Shown in pieces: positions 2,802 to 58,219 of a stretch of DNA of 64,000 nucleotides (positions within the stretch are counted from its first letter, which is position 1; every line of letters begins with the position of its first letter). The position numbers and the translations under genes were made by a program. The notes under the pieces were generated by a model, which saw nothing but the letters and a program-made list of their open reading frames with translations, did not search any database and had not been told where the DNA came from. The DNA comes from Paraniabella ginsengisoli (GTDB taxonomy: Bacteria; Bacteroidota; Bacteroidia; Chitinophagales; Chitinophagaceae), in contig NZ_JAKWBL010000002.1 of assembly GCF_022513635.1 (NCBI RefSeq), positions 124,001-188,000 on the forward strand. Reading direction: 5' to 3'.

Positions 2802-2842
2802 AGTGAATTTTTTTGGTTATTATTTATTGTTTTTAGCCAACT

Positions 2843-2892
2843 GTGTGCATGAGGCAACAAAATTGCGTCGCACACTTCAGCATGGTTAACAA
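2843..2892. repeat. Fragment of the GCGTCGCACACTT repeat family
   Basis: Contains TTGCGTCGCACACTTCAGCA, the core seen in the copies at 11050, 21046 and 22765. The flanks are degenerate, so this is a remnant or a distant copy. Confidence 0.5.
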
Positions 2893-2901
2893 TGCTGATC
2901 T

Positions 2902-3393
2902 TTATTTAACGGTCAGACCTTTGCTATCAACTTTTTTAGGTTTAGTAGCTTGCACTTTCTGCATTAACACTTTTAGGTCATCTTTGGAAATTTCGCCCGT
3001 TAACGTTACAATTCCACCAGCTACTGAAGCCGATACAGTTGGATGATCTTTTATAGCATCTGTCACAGCCGTTGTTAGCGAATCATCAGCGCTTATTGTA
3101 ACAGGCGCAACAGGTAATGGAGGAGGAGCGGGGCTTGTAAGATTTTCAACGCTTTTAATACCCTCAACGCTCTTTACTGCAGATTCTGCCGCAGATTGTG
3201 TTGCCGGATCTTTTACTTCACCGGAAATAGTTGCTACCGCATCTTTGACGTCAACCATAACGGTGGTTAAATCTGGGTTTGATTGTAGTGCGGCTTCTGC
3301 AGCAGTTTTTAAATCAGCATCACTTTTTCCTTTACATGATGGAAGAGCAAAAGTGAATGCGACAATTGCGATTAAAGCAAGAATTCTTTTCAT
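2902..3393 (-). CDS. Lipoprotein with two BON domains
   Basis: 163 aa from MKRILALIAIVAF, with a lipobox ending at Cys20 (ALPSC). Two BON repeats follow: residues ~22-85 (DADLKTAAEAALQ ... VATISGEV) and ~105-163 (DDSLTTAVTDAIKDHP ... IVTLTGEI), joined by a proline-rich linker (SPAPPPLPVAPV). BON domains bind membranes or phospholipid surfaces and occur in OsmY-type stress proteins, so an outer-membrane maintenance role is likely. An upstream in-frame start would bury the lipobox, so the start at 3393 is preferred. Confidence 0.8.
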   Translation of the reverse strand: MKRILALIAIVAFTFALPSCKGKSDADLKTAAEAALQSNPDLTTVMVDVKDAVATISGEVKDPATQSAAESAVKSVEGIKSVENLTSPAPPPLPVAPVTISADDSLTTAVTDAIKDHPTVSASVAGGIVTLTGEISKDDLKVLMQKVQATKPKKVDSKGLTVK

Positions 3394-9735: not shown

Positions 9736-11043
9736 ATGATGAACGATGTTAATACTAAGCCGTTAACTAAGTTGAATGTCCTTTCTTTGAAAGGTGTACA
9801 AATGCGCACTTTTCACATTACCTGGTTCACATTTTTTGTTTGCTTTTTTGGATGGTTTGGTTTGGCGCCATTGATGCCAACCATCAAAGAAAATCTACAG
9901 TTAGATAAATCTCAGATAGGAAATATCATAATAGCATCCGTTTCGGGTACGATAGTAGCGCGCTTACTAATGGGCAGATTGTGTGATACATGGGGCCCCA
10001 GAAAAACCTATACCGCTTTATTGCTTATTGGTGCTATACCTGTAATGTGTGTTGGATTGGCAGAAAGTTATACTTCATTTCTTCTTTTCAGGTTGGCCAT
10101 AAGTGTTATCGGTGCGTCTTTTGTAATTACTCAATTTCATACTTCAATGATGTTTGCTCCAGCCATCAAAGGCACTGCCAACGCAGTCGCCGGAGGTTGG
10201 GGCAATCTTGGTGGCGGAGTTACCAATATAGTGATGCCGATCATATTCGCGGCAATTGTAGGTTTTGGTTACACAAGCGACGAAGCCTGGCGTTATGCGA
10301 TGATCGCGCCTGGCATTATGATGCTTGTTGCGGCTTTTTTGTATTACCGCTTTACAAAAGATACACCAGAAGGAAACTTTGATGAAATCGAAAGAGCAGC
10401 CAAAGTAAAAGTAAAAACAGATTACAGTGTTCTAAAAGACTGGCGAATATGGGCGTTAACACTGGCTTATGCCGTATGTTTTGGCATGGAGATTACTTTT
10501 GATAATATTGCTGCGCTTCATTTCGTTCAGGAATATAATCTCGATCAGCAGTCTGCGGGGCTTTGGGCTGGTGTATTTGGTTTAATGAATTTATTTGCAC
10601 GCGCATTGGGTGGCATCTTTGCGGACCGTGTTGGAAAGACTTATGGTATGCGCGGCAAGGGAATTTTATTAGCGATTGTCTTGTTGCTCGAAGGTATTGG
10701 TCTTATACTCTTCGCTATGGCCGGATCACTTACATTAGCCATTATTTCAATGCTTTCATTCGCGCTGTTTCTGAAAATGGCTAATGGCGCCACTTATGCA
10801 ATCACGCCTTTTATAAACGAAAAAAATATCGGGTTGGTAAGCGGTGTTGTCGGCGCCGGTGGAAATGTAGGTGGCATGTTGTTCGGCTTCTTATTTAAAA
10901 GCTCAACTATTACTTACGCACAGGCATTTAGTTATATCGGTGTTATTGTTGTGTTAGTGTCCTTTATAATATTGCTTACAAAATTCGCTAAAGTTAAACA
11001 CGCTGAAACTCCTGCTGTTGCTTTAGAACCGGTTACGCAATAA
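9736..11043 (+). CDS. narK: Nitrate/nitrite MFS transporter
   Basis: 435 aa (433-435 depending on which of two adjacent ATGs is used), 12 predicted membrane segments, MFS fold. NarK-family features are visible: FHITWFTFFVCFFGWFGLAPL in segment 1, the MFS loop GRLCDTWGPRKTY, and the glycine-rich nitrate signatures ANAVAGGWGNLGGG (segment 5) and VVGAGGNVGGMLFG (segment 11). It brings nitrate into the cytoplasm or exchanges it for nitrite. It is followed after 140 bases by the nitrate reductase. NasA/NarK1-type proton symport versus antiport cannot be told from sequence. Confidence 0.95.
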   Translation: MMNDVNTKPLTKLNVLSLKGVQMRTFHITWFTFFVCFFGWFGLAPLMPTIKENLQLDKSQIGNIIIASVSGTIVARLLMGRLCDTWGPRKTYTALLLIGAIPVMCVGLAESYTSFLLFRLAISVIGASFVITQFHTSMMFAPAIKGTANAVAGGWGNLGGGVTNIVMPIIFAAIVGFGYTSDEAWRYAMIAPGIMMLVAAFLYYRFTKDTPEGNFDEIERAAKVKVKTDYSVLKDWRIWALTLAYAVCFGMEITFDNIAALHFVQEYNLDQQSAGLWAGVFGLMNLFARALGGIFADRVGKTYGMRGKGILLAIVLLLEGIGLILFAMAGSLTLAIISMLSFALFLKMANGATYAITPFINEKNIGLVSGVVGAGGNVGGMLFGFLFKSSTITYAQAFSYIGVIVVLVSFIILLTKFAKVKHAETPAVALEPVTQ

Positions 11044-11049
11044 TATTTT

Positions 11050-11112
11050 TATGAACCCAGCAATAAACATAAATCATCTTCCTTGCGTCGCACTCTTCAA
11101 CTGATGTATATA
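11050..11112. repeat. GCGTCGCACACTT repeat family, copy B (tail only)
   Basis: Carries CAGCAATAAACA ... TTCCTTGCGTCGCACTCTTC ... GATGTATATA, matching the tails at 21046 and 22818. No hairpin head is recognisable here. It lies between narK and the nitrate reductase. Confidence 0.6.
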
Positions 11113-11183
11113 ACTGAACCTATTTAAACGACGACAATAAACTCAATACTATTCAAAGCAAAGAAAAAATAAACAATCAAGAA

Positions 11184-20299: not shown

Positions 20300-21030
20300 A
20301 TGGACTTTACTTATTTATTTTATGTACTTCTTTTTATTGTAGCATTTTTATATGCTTCGGTTGGGCATGGCGGCGCCAGCGGTTATCTGGCCTTGATGGC
20401 TATTTTTGGCGTAGCTACGGATGTGATGAAGCCAACCGCGCTGTTGCTAAACCTGTTTGTGTCCTTGGTTTCCTTTATACAATTTTACCGCGGAGGTTAT
20501 TTCAAATTGAAGCTGTTCCTCCCGTTTGCCTTAGCCTCTATACCGCTGGCTTTTTTAGGTGGACTTATTGCCGTGGATGCTTCTTTTTATAAAAAAATAT
20601 TGGGTTTGCTTTTGCTCATACCTATTGCACGATTTCTTTTTTTAGAAACATCAATAATTTGGTTACAAAAAAGCATAACGCATTGTTAGCTGTTTTCCTG
20701 GGTGCTTTTATCGGATTTTTATCAGGATTGATTGGTATTGGCGGCGGCATTATTCTGTCACCAATATTGCTGCTGCTGCGTTGGGCGAATATGAAAGAAT
20801 CTGCGGCGATAAGCGCATTATTCATTTTTGTAAATTCTATGTCCGGTCTCGCCGGCCAGTTAACTAAAGGGGTACAGTTTACTGCGGATATGTATTGGTA
20901 TGTAATTGTTGCGTTTGCTGGTGGGCTTTTGGGCGCTTATTATGGATCGATCAAGTTTAAGCAGGATGTGTTGAAATATGTTTTGTCCACAGTGTTGTTG
21001 TTAGCAGTGTATAAATTATTGTTTGTATGA
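20300..21030 (+). CDS. TSUP (TauE/SafE) family membrane permease, one frameshift
   Basis: The repaired product is about 243 aa with roughly eight membrane segments and two repeat halves. Each half carries the family's glycine-rich segment: FLYASVGHGGASGYLALMA and FLSGLIGIGGGIILSP. The break is the 7-T run 20637-20643; one added T gives RFLFFRNINNLVTKK. TSUP proteins export or import sulfite, sulfoacetate or related small anions. Its place between moeA and moaD suggests an oxyanion linked to this pathway, but the substrate cannot be read from the sequence. Confidence 0.88.
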
Positions 21031-21045
21031 GTAACAATTTTTATT

Positions 21046-21157
21046 GAACCAGCAATAAACAAATGGCATCGGTATTGCGTCGCACACTTGAACAGTAGAA
21101 TATACGGCATCCTACATATTGATTGTAATCACCAGTCAGACCGAGACGGTCAGACTG
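21046..21157 (-). repeat. Hairpin-tail repeat, copy C
   Basis: The tail at 21046-21118 is about 90% identical, in reverse orientation, to 22818-22889. Shared blocks include TTGCGTCGCACACTTGAAC and GGCATCCTACATA. The head is an imperfect palindrome at 21132-21157 (CAGTCAGACCG-AGA-CGGTCAGACTG). Confidence 0.8.
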
Positions 21158-21200
21158 CGTGCAAGTCACAAAATGACGCAGAACCAATAAGTTTAGAATC

Positions 21201-21431
21201 ATGACAATTAATGTTTTATTTTTCGGACCTCTTGCTGAAATTGTCGGCAATGCTATCGAAATGCCCGTTGTTTCTACATTACACGAACTTGAACAAAAAT
21301 TGTTTGAGCAATTCCCTTTGCTAAAAGATAAAAAGTACGCATTGTCCGTCAACGAAAAAATTGTATCAGGCAATGTTGATTTAGAAGAAGGATTTACAAT
21401 TGCTTTTCTACCTCCATTTTCAGGAGGTTGA
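21201..21431 (+). CDS. moaD: Molybdopterin synthase small subunit
   Basis: 76 aa, ubiquitin-like fold. It ends FSGG, and the C-terminal glycine is the residue that is adenylylated by MoeB and carries the thiocarboxylate sulfur to the dithiolene. The start MTINVLFFGPLAEIVG is typical. It sits directly upstream of moeB, and moaE follows moeB. The gene is bracketed by two 26-bp hairpins that are exact reverse complements of each other. Confidence 0.93.
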   Translation: MTINVLFFGPLAEIVGNAIEMPVVSTLHELEQKLFEQFPLLKDKKYALSVNEKIVSGNVDLEEGFTIAFLPPFSGG

Positions 21432-21439
21432 CCAAATCC

Positions 21440-21465
21440 CAGTCTGACCGTCTCGGTCTGACTGG
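21440..21465 (+). repeat. 26-bp hairpin, exact inverse of 21132-21157
   Basis: CAGTCTGACCG-TCT-CGGTCTGACTG plus one G. It starts nine bases after the moaD stop and is the exact reverse complement of the hairpin upstream of moaD. It has no T-tract, so it is unlikely to be a simple terminator. Confidence 0.8.
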
Positions 21466-21519
21466 TATTGGTAAGATGGTGAAGTGTCGTCGTAATTTAA
21501 TTTTTATATTAATCATGGT

Positions 21520-22620
21520 ATGAGTCAAAGAGAACTACATACAAGATACCAAAGACAAATAATGCTGAAAGGCTTTGGTATTGCAGCGCAACAGAAACTG
21601 CTGGCAGCGCGGGTTTTAGTTGTTGGCGCTGGAGGATTGGGTTGTCCGGTATTACAATACTTATGTGCAGCAGGTGTTGGGACGATTGGTGTGATTGATG
21701 ATGATGTGGTATCATTATCTAATTTGCACCGACAGGTTTTATTTGGAACGGATGATATTGGTAAACCCAAAGTTGAAGTTGCTGTTGAACAACTCAGGCG
21801 CCTTAATCCCGAGGTTACTATTAATATTTATACCCAACGATTAACAGTTGATAATACATTAGAACTTTTAGGTAAGTACGATTTGGTTGTAGATGGATCG
21901 GACAATTTTGCTACCCGGTATTTGGTTAATGATGCGTGTGTATTGCTGGACAAACCTTTGGTGTACGGCGCTGTATCAACATATGAAGGACAGCTTGCTG
22001 TTTTTAATTGGAATAAAAATAGTGAGCAAGAAAGAGCCGTAAATTATCGGGATGTTTTTCCTCAGCCGCCATCTGCGCAAGAAGTTCCTAATTGTAATGA
22101 AGCCGGTGTGTTAGGCGTATTACCTGGGATTATTGGTACGATGATGGCAACGGAAGTGATTAAAATTGTTTCAGAAATTGGTGAGGTATTGGCGGGCAAG
22201 CTTCTTATTTATAATTCTCTTAATCACAATTCCTATAGACTTAGTATTGAACAAAATTCAGAGGCAAATGATTTGATACCAAAATCAACAGCTGCGTTTA
22301 AAAGAATGATTTATGAAGAAACCTGTATTTCAAATATTGAAATAGATGCAGCTGCTTTTAATGAATGGGTACGAAATGACAATGCTTTGATTATTGATGT
22401 ACGCGATTCTGATGAAATGCCCATTGTTAGTGGGTTTAAACATATCAATATACCATACGGTGAGATTTTGGAAAGAGGAGAGGAGTTGGATTCGGAAAAT
22501 ATTATATTATTTTGTTTGTCTGGGAAACGTAGCTTTAGCGCGGCACAAAAGTTAAAGCAATTAAGGAAAGGTGTAAATGTGTATAGCTTGAAAGGAGGAA
22601 TAGAGAGCAGGGGAAGTTAA
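21520..22620 (+). CDS. moeB: MoaD-activating adenylyltransferase with C-terminal rhodanese domain
   Basis: 366 aa. Residues ~1-245 are the ThiF/MoeB/HesA E1-like domain: RYQRQIMLKGFG, VLVVGAGGLGCPVLQYL (ATP loop), SNLHRQVLF, VDGSDNFATRYLVND and CNEAGVLGVLPG. Residues ~265-366 are a rhodanese domain whose active-site loop FCLSGKRS contains the persulfide cysteine. It adenylylates MoaD, and the rhodanese half may deliver the sulfur directly, as in MOCS3-type proteins. Thiamine (ThiF) or other sulfur carriers remain possible alternatives, but moaD immediately upstream favours Moco. Confidence 0.92.
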   Translation: MSQRELHTRYQRQIMLKGFGIAAQQKLLAARVLVVGAGGLGCPVLQYLCAAGVGTIGVIDDDVVSLSNLHRQVLFGTDDIGKPKVEVAVEQLRRLNPEVTINIYTQRLTVDNTLELLGKYDLVVDGSDNFATRYLVNDACVLLDKPLVYGAVSTYEGQLAVFNWNKNSEQERAVNYRDVFPQPPSAQEVPNCNEAGVLGVLPGIIGTMMATEVIKIVSEIGEVLAGKLLIYNSLNHNSYRLSIEQNSEANDLIPKSTAAFKRMIYEETCISNIEIDAAAFNEWVRNDNALIIDVRDSDEMPIVSGFKHINIPYGEILERGEELDSENIILFCLSGKRSFSAAQKLKQLRKGVNVYSLKGGIESRGS

Positions 22621-22890
22621 CAGATGACGGATGGGAGATGACAGATCCTTGTTCAGATTTTGGGATGTAGTTTTTCGTATACCGTAATTCATACATCGTA
22701 CATTTTCAAATCCTATTAATCTTATAATCTAACAAATCATGGTTCTGACAATGGCGAAGTATAGGAACAAGACCTCCGAGGTTTTTAAAACCTCGGAGGT
22801 CTTGTTCGGCGTCGTTTATGTAGGATGCCATATATTCTACAGTTCAAGTGTGCGACGCAAGATCGATGCCATCTGTTTATTGTTGGTCTA
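22621..22890 (+). repeat. Hairpin-tail repeat, copy D, with a GACAG-type fragment at its left
   Basis: The 22621-22650 stretch carries GATGACGGATGGGAGATGACAG, a dispersed intergenic motif. At 22765-22807 is a perfect 21-bp-arm palindrome (GAACAAGACCTCCGAGG ... CCTCGGAGGTCTTGTTC) with a one-base centre. The conserved tail (TATGTAGGATGCC ... AGTGTGCGACGCAA ... TGTTTATTG) runs to 22890. There is no T-tract after the hairpin. Confidence 0.85.
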
Positions 22891-22900
22891 ATAAAAGAAT

Positions 22901-57961: not shown

Positions 57962-58024
57962 TCTGAACTATGTTCCGAAAGTATTTGGGATGATTTATAT
58001 GATTGGGCGGATCATCACCAATAT

Positions 58025-58130
58025 GACATCCCAGGTTTTTAACTTGGGATGTCTTATTCGGAGCGTACATATAGGATGAGCAATATTGTGATGCACAAGC
58101 GAGCGTGGCAAGGAAGATGAGTTATATTTA
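58025..58130 (+). repeat. Hairpin-tail repeat, copy E (degenerate)
   Basis: The head is a palindrome at 58025-58053 (GACATCCCAGGTT-TTT-AACTTGGGATGTC, one G-T pair). The tail reads ATTCGGAGCGTACATATAGGATG ... GGCAAGGAAGATGA, matching the arrangement and several blocks of copies B and D. Confidence 0.65.
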
Positions 58131-58219
58131 CAGCCGATTCAATAAAGTTGAAACAAATCCATTGAAAAAACTGAAATGAAAAGATCGTGATTTAGATATT
58201 ACATATCTACATTTGCCTC

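Follow-up and report, generated by a model that had tools for sequence, protein, structure and literature searches.

Short intergenic repeats in Chitinophagaceae are candidate ends of non-autonomous mobile DNA elements

A 64-kb stretch of the Paraniabella ginsengisoli genome (the window) contains five copies, A to E, of one short repeat tail, and we lean towards reading such tails as the ends of short non-autonomous mobile DNA elements that work like REPINs or BIMEs. In each tail an 11-bp core lies between two arms of ~40 nt, an inner (left) one and an outer (right) one that ends in an A-run. If this reading is right, part of one bacterial family harbours an exceptionally dense population of short repeats without a linked transposase, and the spread and persistence of REP-like repeats without RAYT become testable. 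A search for a protein able to bind or cleave GTGCGACGCAA and GAGTGACACAA, the two abundant core types, then has a concrete starting point in a core that hardly varies and in the change of homology at its edge. Searches of the open-access literature by core word or for intergenic repeats of Chitinophagaceae found no description of this repeat.

Repeat tails and heads in the window

The window holds four exact cores and no one-mismatch cores (Table 1). Copies C and D had been taken, in a sequence-only reading of this DNA, for inverted tails of ~90% identity around moaD and moeB, and they are 90% complementary over 80 nt; copy B is, as that reading held, a tail without a head. The same reading gave copy E a head-plus-tail layout, which it has, but its core is GAGCGTGGCAA and not GTGCGACGCAA. 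The palindromic heads beside D and E belong, as proposed, to one family, which has 12 members. Two GTCAGACC-type palindromes flank moaD. Arm lengths differ by one or two bases from copy to copy, and a coding peptide in the tail was set aside by eye on that ground.

Table 1 Repeat tails and palindromes in the window, with positions counted from its first base
Feature	Position	Strand	Description
Copy A	2829-2908	-	Tail only; T1 core 2863-2873; arm limits approximate; absent from the sequence-only reading
Copy B	11045-11133	-	Tail only; T1 core 11083-11093; outer arm adjoins a stop codon (gene ends at 11043)
Copy C	21039-21118	-	Tail; T1 core 21075-21085; 9 nt between outer arm and an ORF stop codon (ORF ends at 21030)
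Head beside C	21133-21157		GTCAGACC-type palindrome; one A/A mismatch in the stem; outside the D/E head family
Second GTCAGACC-type palindrome	21435-21469		Between moaD and moeB
Head beside D	22765-22807		Perfect 21-bp stem; AGACCTCCGAGGTTTT family
Copy D	22817-22896	+	Tail; T1 core 22850-22860; 4 nt between outer arm and moaE start (22901)
Head beside E	58020-58058		Same palindrome family as the D head; 18-nt stem at 89%
Copy E	58064-58146	+	Tail; alternative core GAGCGTGGCAA at 58101-58111

Core types and distribution

The first core type, T1 (GTGCGACGCAA), has a short dyad (TGCG-A-CGCA) and, as read from its sequence, neither GTAG nor a stem beyond that 4-bp dyad. It occurs 164 times in the 4.53-Mb P. 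ginsengisoli genome (84 and 80 copies by strand), against one occurrence of the reversed-pattern control. Allowing up to one mismatch yields 206 sites versus 43 in the control; the one-mismatch sites number 42 in both, with no excess over chance, so partly decayed T1 cores are not detectable in this genome. The second abundant core, T2 (GAGTGACACAA), differs from T1 by a C-G pair swapped for T-A across the dyad and by one further base change, and has 14 and 24 copies by strand (control, 0). A whole-tail profile search of 389 kb of P. ginsengisoli stretches returned 12 matches without T1: three with GAGCG[A/T]CGCAA, two with T2, two with GAGCGTGGCAA (one of them copy E), four at three places with the palindrome TCCGCCAGCTGGCGGA, and one chance match (E-value 0.59). 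At those three places (L086 ~7690, L030 ~190 and L011 ~2730) the palindrome replaces the core. Statistics on P. ginsengisoli copies below refer to 94 (in the adjacent-pair test, 95) of the 164 T1 cores, with identical contexts counted once.

The relative sampled most deeply, G170, contributes 400 kb with 117 T1, 70 T2 and 11 TTGCGACGCAA cores. One-mismatch T1 cores number 24 in this sample (11 are TTGCGACGCAA and 13 have other forms) versus 2 in the control, and the two T1-T2 intermediate forms that were counted have 0 and 1 copies. At ~292-295 kb of the G170 sample (L182), the T2 core of several left-arm copies is interrupted by an insert around CATGCTAAAGCTTGATG.

T1 is present in 167 of 244 genomes of the same family, at 0 to 2,170 copies per genome (reversed controls, 0 to 9). 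The richest genomes are G236 (2,170 copies, about one core per 2.5 kb), G178 (1,832), G170 (1,690), G100 (1,640) and G093 (1,367), and the strand balance recurs in a core-rich genome (1,087/1,083). T2 is present in 136 of the 244 genomes and is high in several T1-rich ones (851 copies in G170, 749 in G088 and 657 in G178); G186 has 94 T2 and only 2 T1, so the core types can be amplified separately. All 16 genomes of the same genus carry T1 (3 to 67 copies), and 15 genomes from other families of the order gave three exact matches, in two genomes. Scanning named genomes with a 31-base pattern recovered eight stretches, assigned by title to Chitinophagaceae (five), Bacteroidia (one) and Bacteroidota (two). 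The sequence GTACAAGWGTGCGACGCAA is present in 20 stretches of IMG/VR contigs (L196-L215).

Homology between copies ends at the core

Left-arm and right-arm similarities of paired copies are nearly uncorrelated (0.016 in G170 over 17,391 pairs, 0.017 in G020 and 0.15 in P. ginsengisoli), and pairs similar on both sides number 43 versus 23.7 expected in P. ginsengisoli and 10 versus 7.4 expected in G020. The two arms are not fully independent in P. ginsengisoli, and the excess in G020 is slight. Where copies share 100-300 bp of left (inner) homology, their right (outer) arms are usually unrelated and the homology stops at the core. Core-to-core segments are found again at other loci, inverted copies included, with inner identities of 0.74-0.89 in five comparisons; among the ten 40-nt flanks of these recurring segments, nine have identities of 0.53-0.66 and one of 0.80, random right-arm pairs giving 0.59 (s.d. 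0.06). One G178 segment, which has T2 at one end, carries a gene for a 228-aa protein (no Pfam match above cut-off) and has an inverted copy in G236 amid other neighbours. On these alignments, core-to-core segments seem to move or to be exchanged.

On either side of the core, the ~40-nt arms have long words in common through descent, at a level far exceeding a column-shuffled null. Fast decay of the outer arms after copying of whole elements may be another source of the pattern, and would require the rate to change abruptly at the edge of the core. Arm-only profiles found 13 right-arm and 7 left-arm matches in G170 that have no exact T1, T2 or TTGCGACGCAA core nearby, many of them, by eye, with a core that is mutated or interrupted. 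These matches included no clean empty site, in a search that was insensitive, the profiles being weak (E below 0.01 for only 2 of the 129 right-arm matches and 6 of the 105 left-arm ones); this disfavours, within that sensitivity, a pre-existing target repeat as the origin of the arms.

Inverted doublets and paired copies

Neighbouring cores less than 600 bp apart in G170 are arranged -+, that is, with their inner sides facing, in 37 of 41 cases (+-, 3; --, 1; ++, 0). Pairs of the -+ order that involve no core type but T1 and T2 number 34 and comprise 25 T1/T2, 9 T1/T1 and no T2/T2 pairs; the heterotypic class exceeds the 16 pairs expected (permutation P = 0.0007). All 12 folded doublets, taken as the first 12 of thirty G170 doublets under 260 bp and folded without a shuffled control, form long imperfect hairpins through the spacer. 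In other stretches, which had been fetched for other reasons, 19 of 20 close pairs are likewise -+; here T1/T1 pairs (12) outnumber T1/T2 pairs (7), so a general preference for heterotypic pairs is not established.

Only three doublets under 400 bp occur in the P. ginsengisoli sample. Adjacent -+ copies up to 15 kb apart resemble each other in their inner arms in this genome, with a mean inner-arm score of 17.6 versus 7.9 in distant pairs and scores of at least 25 in 4 of 14 adjacent pairs versus 1.3% of distant ones (permutation P = 0.008); adjacent +-, ++ and -- pairs have no excess inner-arm similarity. Copies C and D are among the four high-scoring pairs and are the most similar of 4,371 P. 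ginsengisoli pairs in the arm comparison. The four pairs lie 1.8-14 kb apart and bracket genes (C1:1033470-1042986, C1:1746347-1760513, C1:317562-320704 and window positions 21075-22850).

The shared inner arms of adjacent -+ copies, the stop of homology at the core, the occurrence of segments in both orientations and the inverted 228-aa gene segment with other neighbours in a second species would also be expected if the cores were site-specific recombination sites. A recombinase would then exchange or invert core-to-core cassettes, as in dif modules and shufflons and with no hairpin transposition, and the core would be invariant since strand exchange needs identity; we consider this account, and the reason it gives for the invariance, unlikely. 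The core resembles XerC boxes with one extra base. A dif site has a XerC arm, a 6-bp centre and a conserved XerD arm, whereas the arm beyond the core is variable here. The dif (pdif) modules of Acinetobacter are segments bounded by inverted short sites at which content is exchanged, and the segments described here are likewise bounded by inverted short sites, but these are chromosomal, far more numerous and without a conserved second arm. Thousands of sites in both orientations should, moreover, rearrange the chromosome, and no recombinase was identified.

Under the mobile-element reading that we prefer, a full element would have two ends in inverted orientation and a spacer tending to a palindrome, with one T1 and one T2 end as the preferred pair in G170, the best-sampled relative; the tails in P. 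ginsengisoli would be mostly single ends. A putative DNA-cutting enzyme would recognise the core, and the core-to-core segment, foldable as a hairpin, would be copied or exchanged between places. Cutting or joining would occur at the outer edge of the core, such that inner parts move and outer arms stay; it is the abrupt loss of homology at the core that suggests cutting or exchange at this site by such an enzyme. The scheme would involve a single-stranded intermediate and present-day mobility. Several observations count against the mobile-element reading: no linked transposase was found, close doublets are rare in the P. ginsengisoli sample, T1/T1 outnumbers T1/T2 among close -+ pairs of the other stretches, no clean empty site was found, the two arms are not fully independent in P. 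ginsengisoli, one of the ten flanks is alike (0.80), and one-mismatch cores do occur in G170.

The boldest reading of the data, which we hold possible but rather doubtful, is exchange of cassettes across the whole genome, with a putative enzyme that uses two mutually pairing types of 11-bp site to swap or invert core-to-core segments between intergenic regions. If it were true, the outer arms would be addresses among which contents circulate, and segments would occasionally travel with genes, perhaps between cells.

Palindromic heads and the question of an RNA

Palindromes next to the tails are a minority feature that is nonetheless specific to the inner side. Within 100 nt inward of the tail, a stem of at least 9 is present in 15 of 94 P. 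ginsengisoli copies and one of at least 12 in 11; outward of the tail the counts are 3 and 0 of 94, and in 279 other intergenic windows, drawn from stretches fetched for holding a core, they are 25 and 6. Heads of the CCTCNGAGG type (5 of 94 inner windows) and of the GTCAGACC type (4 of 94) are absent from all 94 outer and all 279 other windows. The motif GGTTC[AT]GACAAT (for example, window positions 22738-22754) was also seen on the inner side of 5 of the 94 tails, on the outer side of none, and in one of the 279 other intergenic windows.

The sequence-only reading had treated the head as common to C, D and E and had named copies without a paired head as evidence against its proposal. No single head family is common to the three, and the head is not an obligatory part: a stem of at least 9 is present in only 15 of 94 sampled copies, most of which are of the headless kind. 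It had also seen covariation between the arms of the heads. This survives within the D/E family, in whose 12 members 97.9% of cells are paired and both-side changes affect 14 cells versus 4.7 in shuffles (reached by 0 of 500), with no both-side changes when the partner is slid by one to three columns; covarying pairs number 4 versus 2.3 in shuffles, and 33 of 500 shuffles reach that number. It fails for the contrast between C and D, since the C head is another palindrome. Covariation in a DNA palindrome can also come from hairpin-templated repair, without an RNA function.

No conserved structure was found by RNAalifold in 94 P. ginsengisoli and 45 G020 tails, for the left arm, the right arm or the whole tail on either strand (energies of -0.3 to -0.4, with only a 3-bp dyad of the core predicted), and an Rfam search of the window at gathering thresholds returned only a tRNA. 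Selection on an RNA, one of two suggestions made from the sequence, is thus not borne out, there being neither a conserved tail fold nor an Rfam family; the other, a mobile hairpin-type DNA element, gains support in a REPIN-like form.

Placement relative to genes

T1 cores are mostly intergenic, with 16 of 94 sampled P. ginsengisoli cores inside an ORF of at least 80 aa and 14 of 117 cores inside ORFs in the G170 sample. This placement bears on the explanation that the core is a DNA uptake sequence, a word that the competence machinery favours and that biased uptake has spread. The uptake sequences of Neisseria and Haemophilus are rigid 10-12-mers with thousands of copies on both strands, and the core is a rigid, strand-equal 11-mer present in hundreds to thousands of copies with no linked transposase. 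Known uptake words, however, are common inside genes. Long arms shared by descent are a further difference, and two core types in inverted pairs and segments bounded by cores would be unexpected; we regard this explanation as highly improbable.

The outer arm tends to abut a stop codon. Among copies outside ORFs and with both neighbours, a distance of 32-43 nt to the core is found in P. ginsengisoli for 18 of 38 right-side stops versus 1 of 33 left-side stops, and in G170 a distance of 36-47 nt for 43 of 103 right-side versus 11 of 93 left-side stops. Regulatory gene-end signals, such as terminators or 3' UTR elements that selection maintains gene by gene, would account for outer arms that touch stop codons, but cores also stand before start codons (39 right-side starts in P. 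ginsengisoli), the tail has no conserved fold, relatives lack the elements at the moa operon and copy number ranges from 0 to thousands between genomes. We give this explanation very little credence.

At the moa operon, moaD, moeB and moaE are compact and core-free in five relatives (G002, G003, G007, G012 and G015), in which the neighbours are conserved and moaE is 67-78% identical; the P. ginsengisoli spacers hold the tail, palindromes and other short repeats. Because the operon is compact and core-free in the relatives and its spacers are filled here, the repeat elements most likely arrived in this lineage, as judged from these six genomes. Capture of moaD-moeB as a cassette was rejected, given the same gene order and conserved neighbours in the five core-free relatives.

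Comparison with REP families and the transposase question

REPINs are REP doublets that form hairpins and whose spacers show compensatory changes, according to Bertels and Rainey (2011, PMC3116915). Set beside that account, the repeat is similar in its intergenic location, very high copy number, rigid short word (164 versus 1), inverted doublets (in G170) and hairpin spacers with compensatory changes; it differs in that its conserved word is not a GTAG-tagged palindrome and has no RAYT link, and in having outer arms of ~40 nt, a homology switch at the word and two word types. Since the word lacks GTAG at the foot of a palindrome and no association with a RAYT (Y1_Tnp) gene was found, we do not file the repeat as a REPIN, although it would work like one. 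According to PMC3733652, heterodimers are common among REP families, and CGTC REPs, which lack a transposase, carry a CCA-like tail and, beside the tag, a stem of 8-9 bp. The alternating orientation and heterodimers found here recall the BIMEs and GTAG/CGTC REPs of that paper, including its transposase-less CGTC families, and the reverse complement of T1 contains CGTC (that of T2, TGTC); the stem beside the tag and the CCA-like tail described there are not seen at T1, for which RNAalifold gave no conserved stem.

Movement by RAYT (Y1_Tnp) transposases, with a broken gene kept in P. ginsengisoli, would make the elements REPINs proper. Their layout is as in the REPINs of PMC3116915, 184 of 244 genomes have Y1_Tnp matches, and P. 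ginsengisoli has one broken Y1_Tnp gene with a T1 core about 0.45 kb away. Yet Y1_Tnp does not track the cores, whether across the 244 genomes or at 20 loci, and no linked transposase emerged from either comparison. Of the 17 genomes that reach 100 T1, 14 have a match, against the 184 of 244 overall; the T1-rich G054 (263 T1) and G102 (101) have none, G170 (1,690 T1) does not appear among the genomes listed with a match, and G146, with its 15 matches, has no T1. At 20 chosen Y1_Tnp loci from 15 genomes, T1 or T2 lies within 300 bp of the domain at two, and any of the four core types at four. RAYT as the mobiliser is thus unsupported by copy number and gene neighbourhood, and we judge it improbable.

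Ten of the 15 Y1_Tnp matches in G146 share the best score, and G006 has eight full-length matches with identical scores. The Y1_Tnp elements of these two genomes appear to be recently active and unrelated to the cores.
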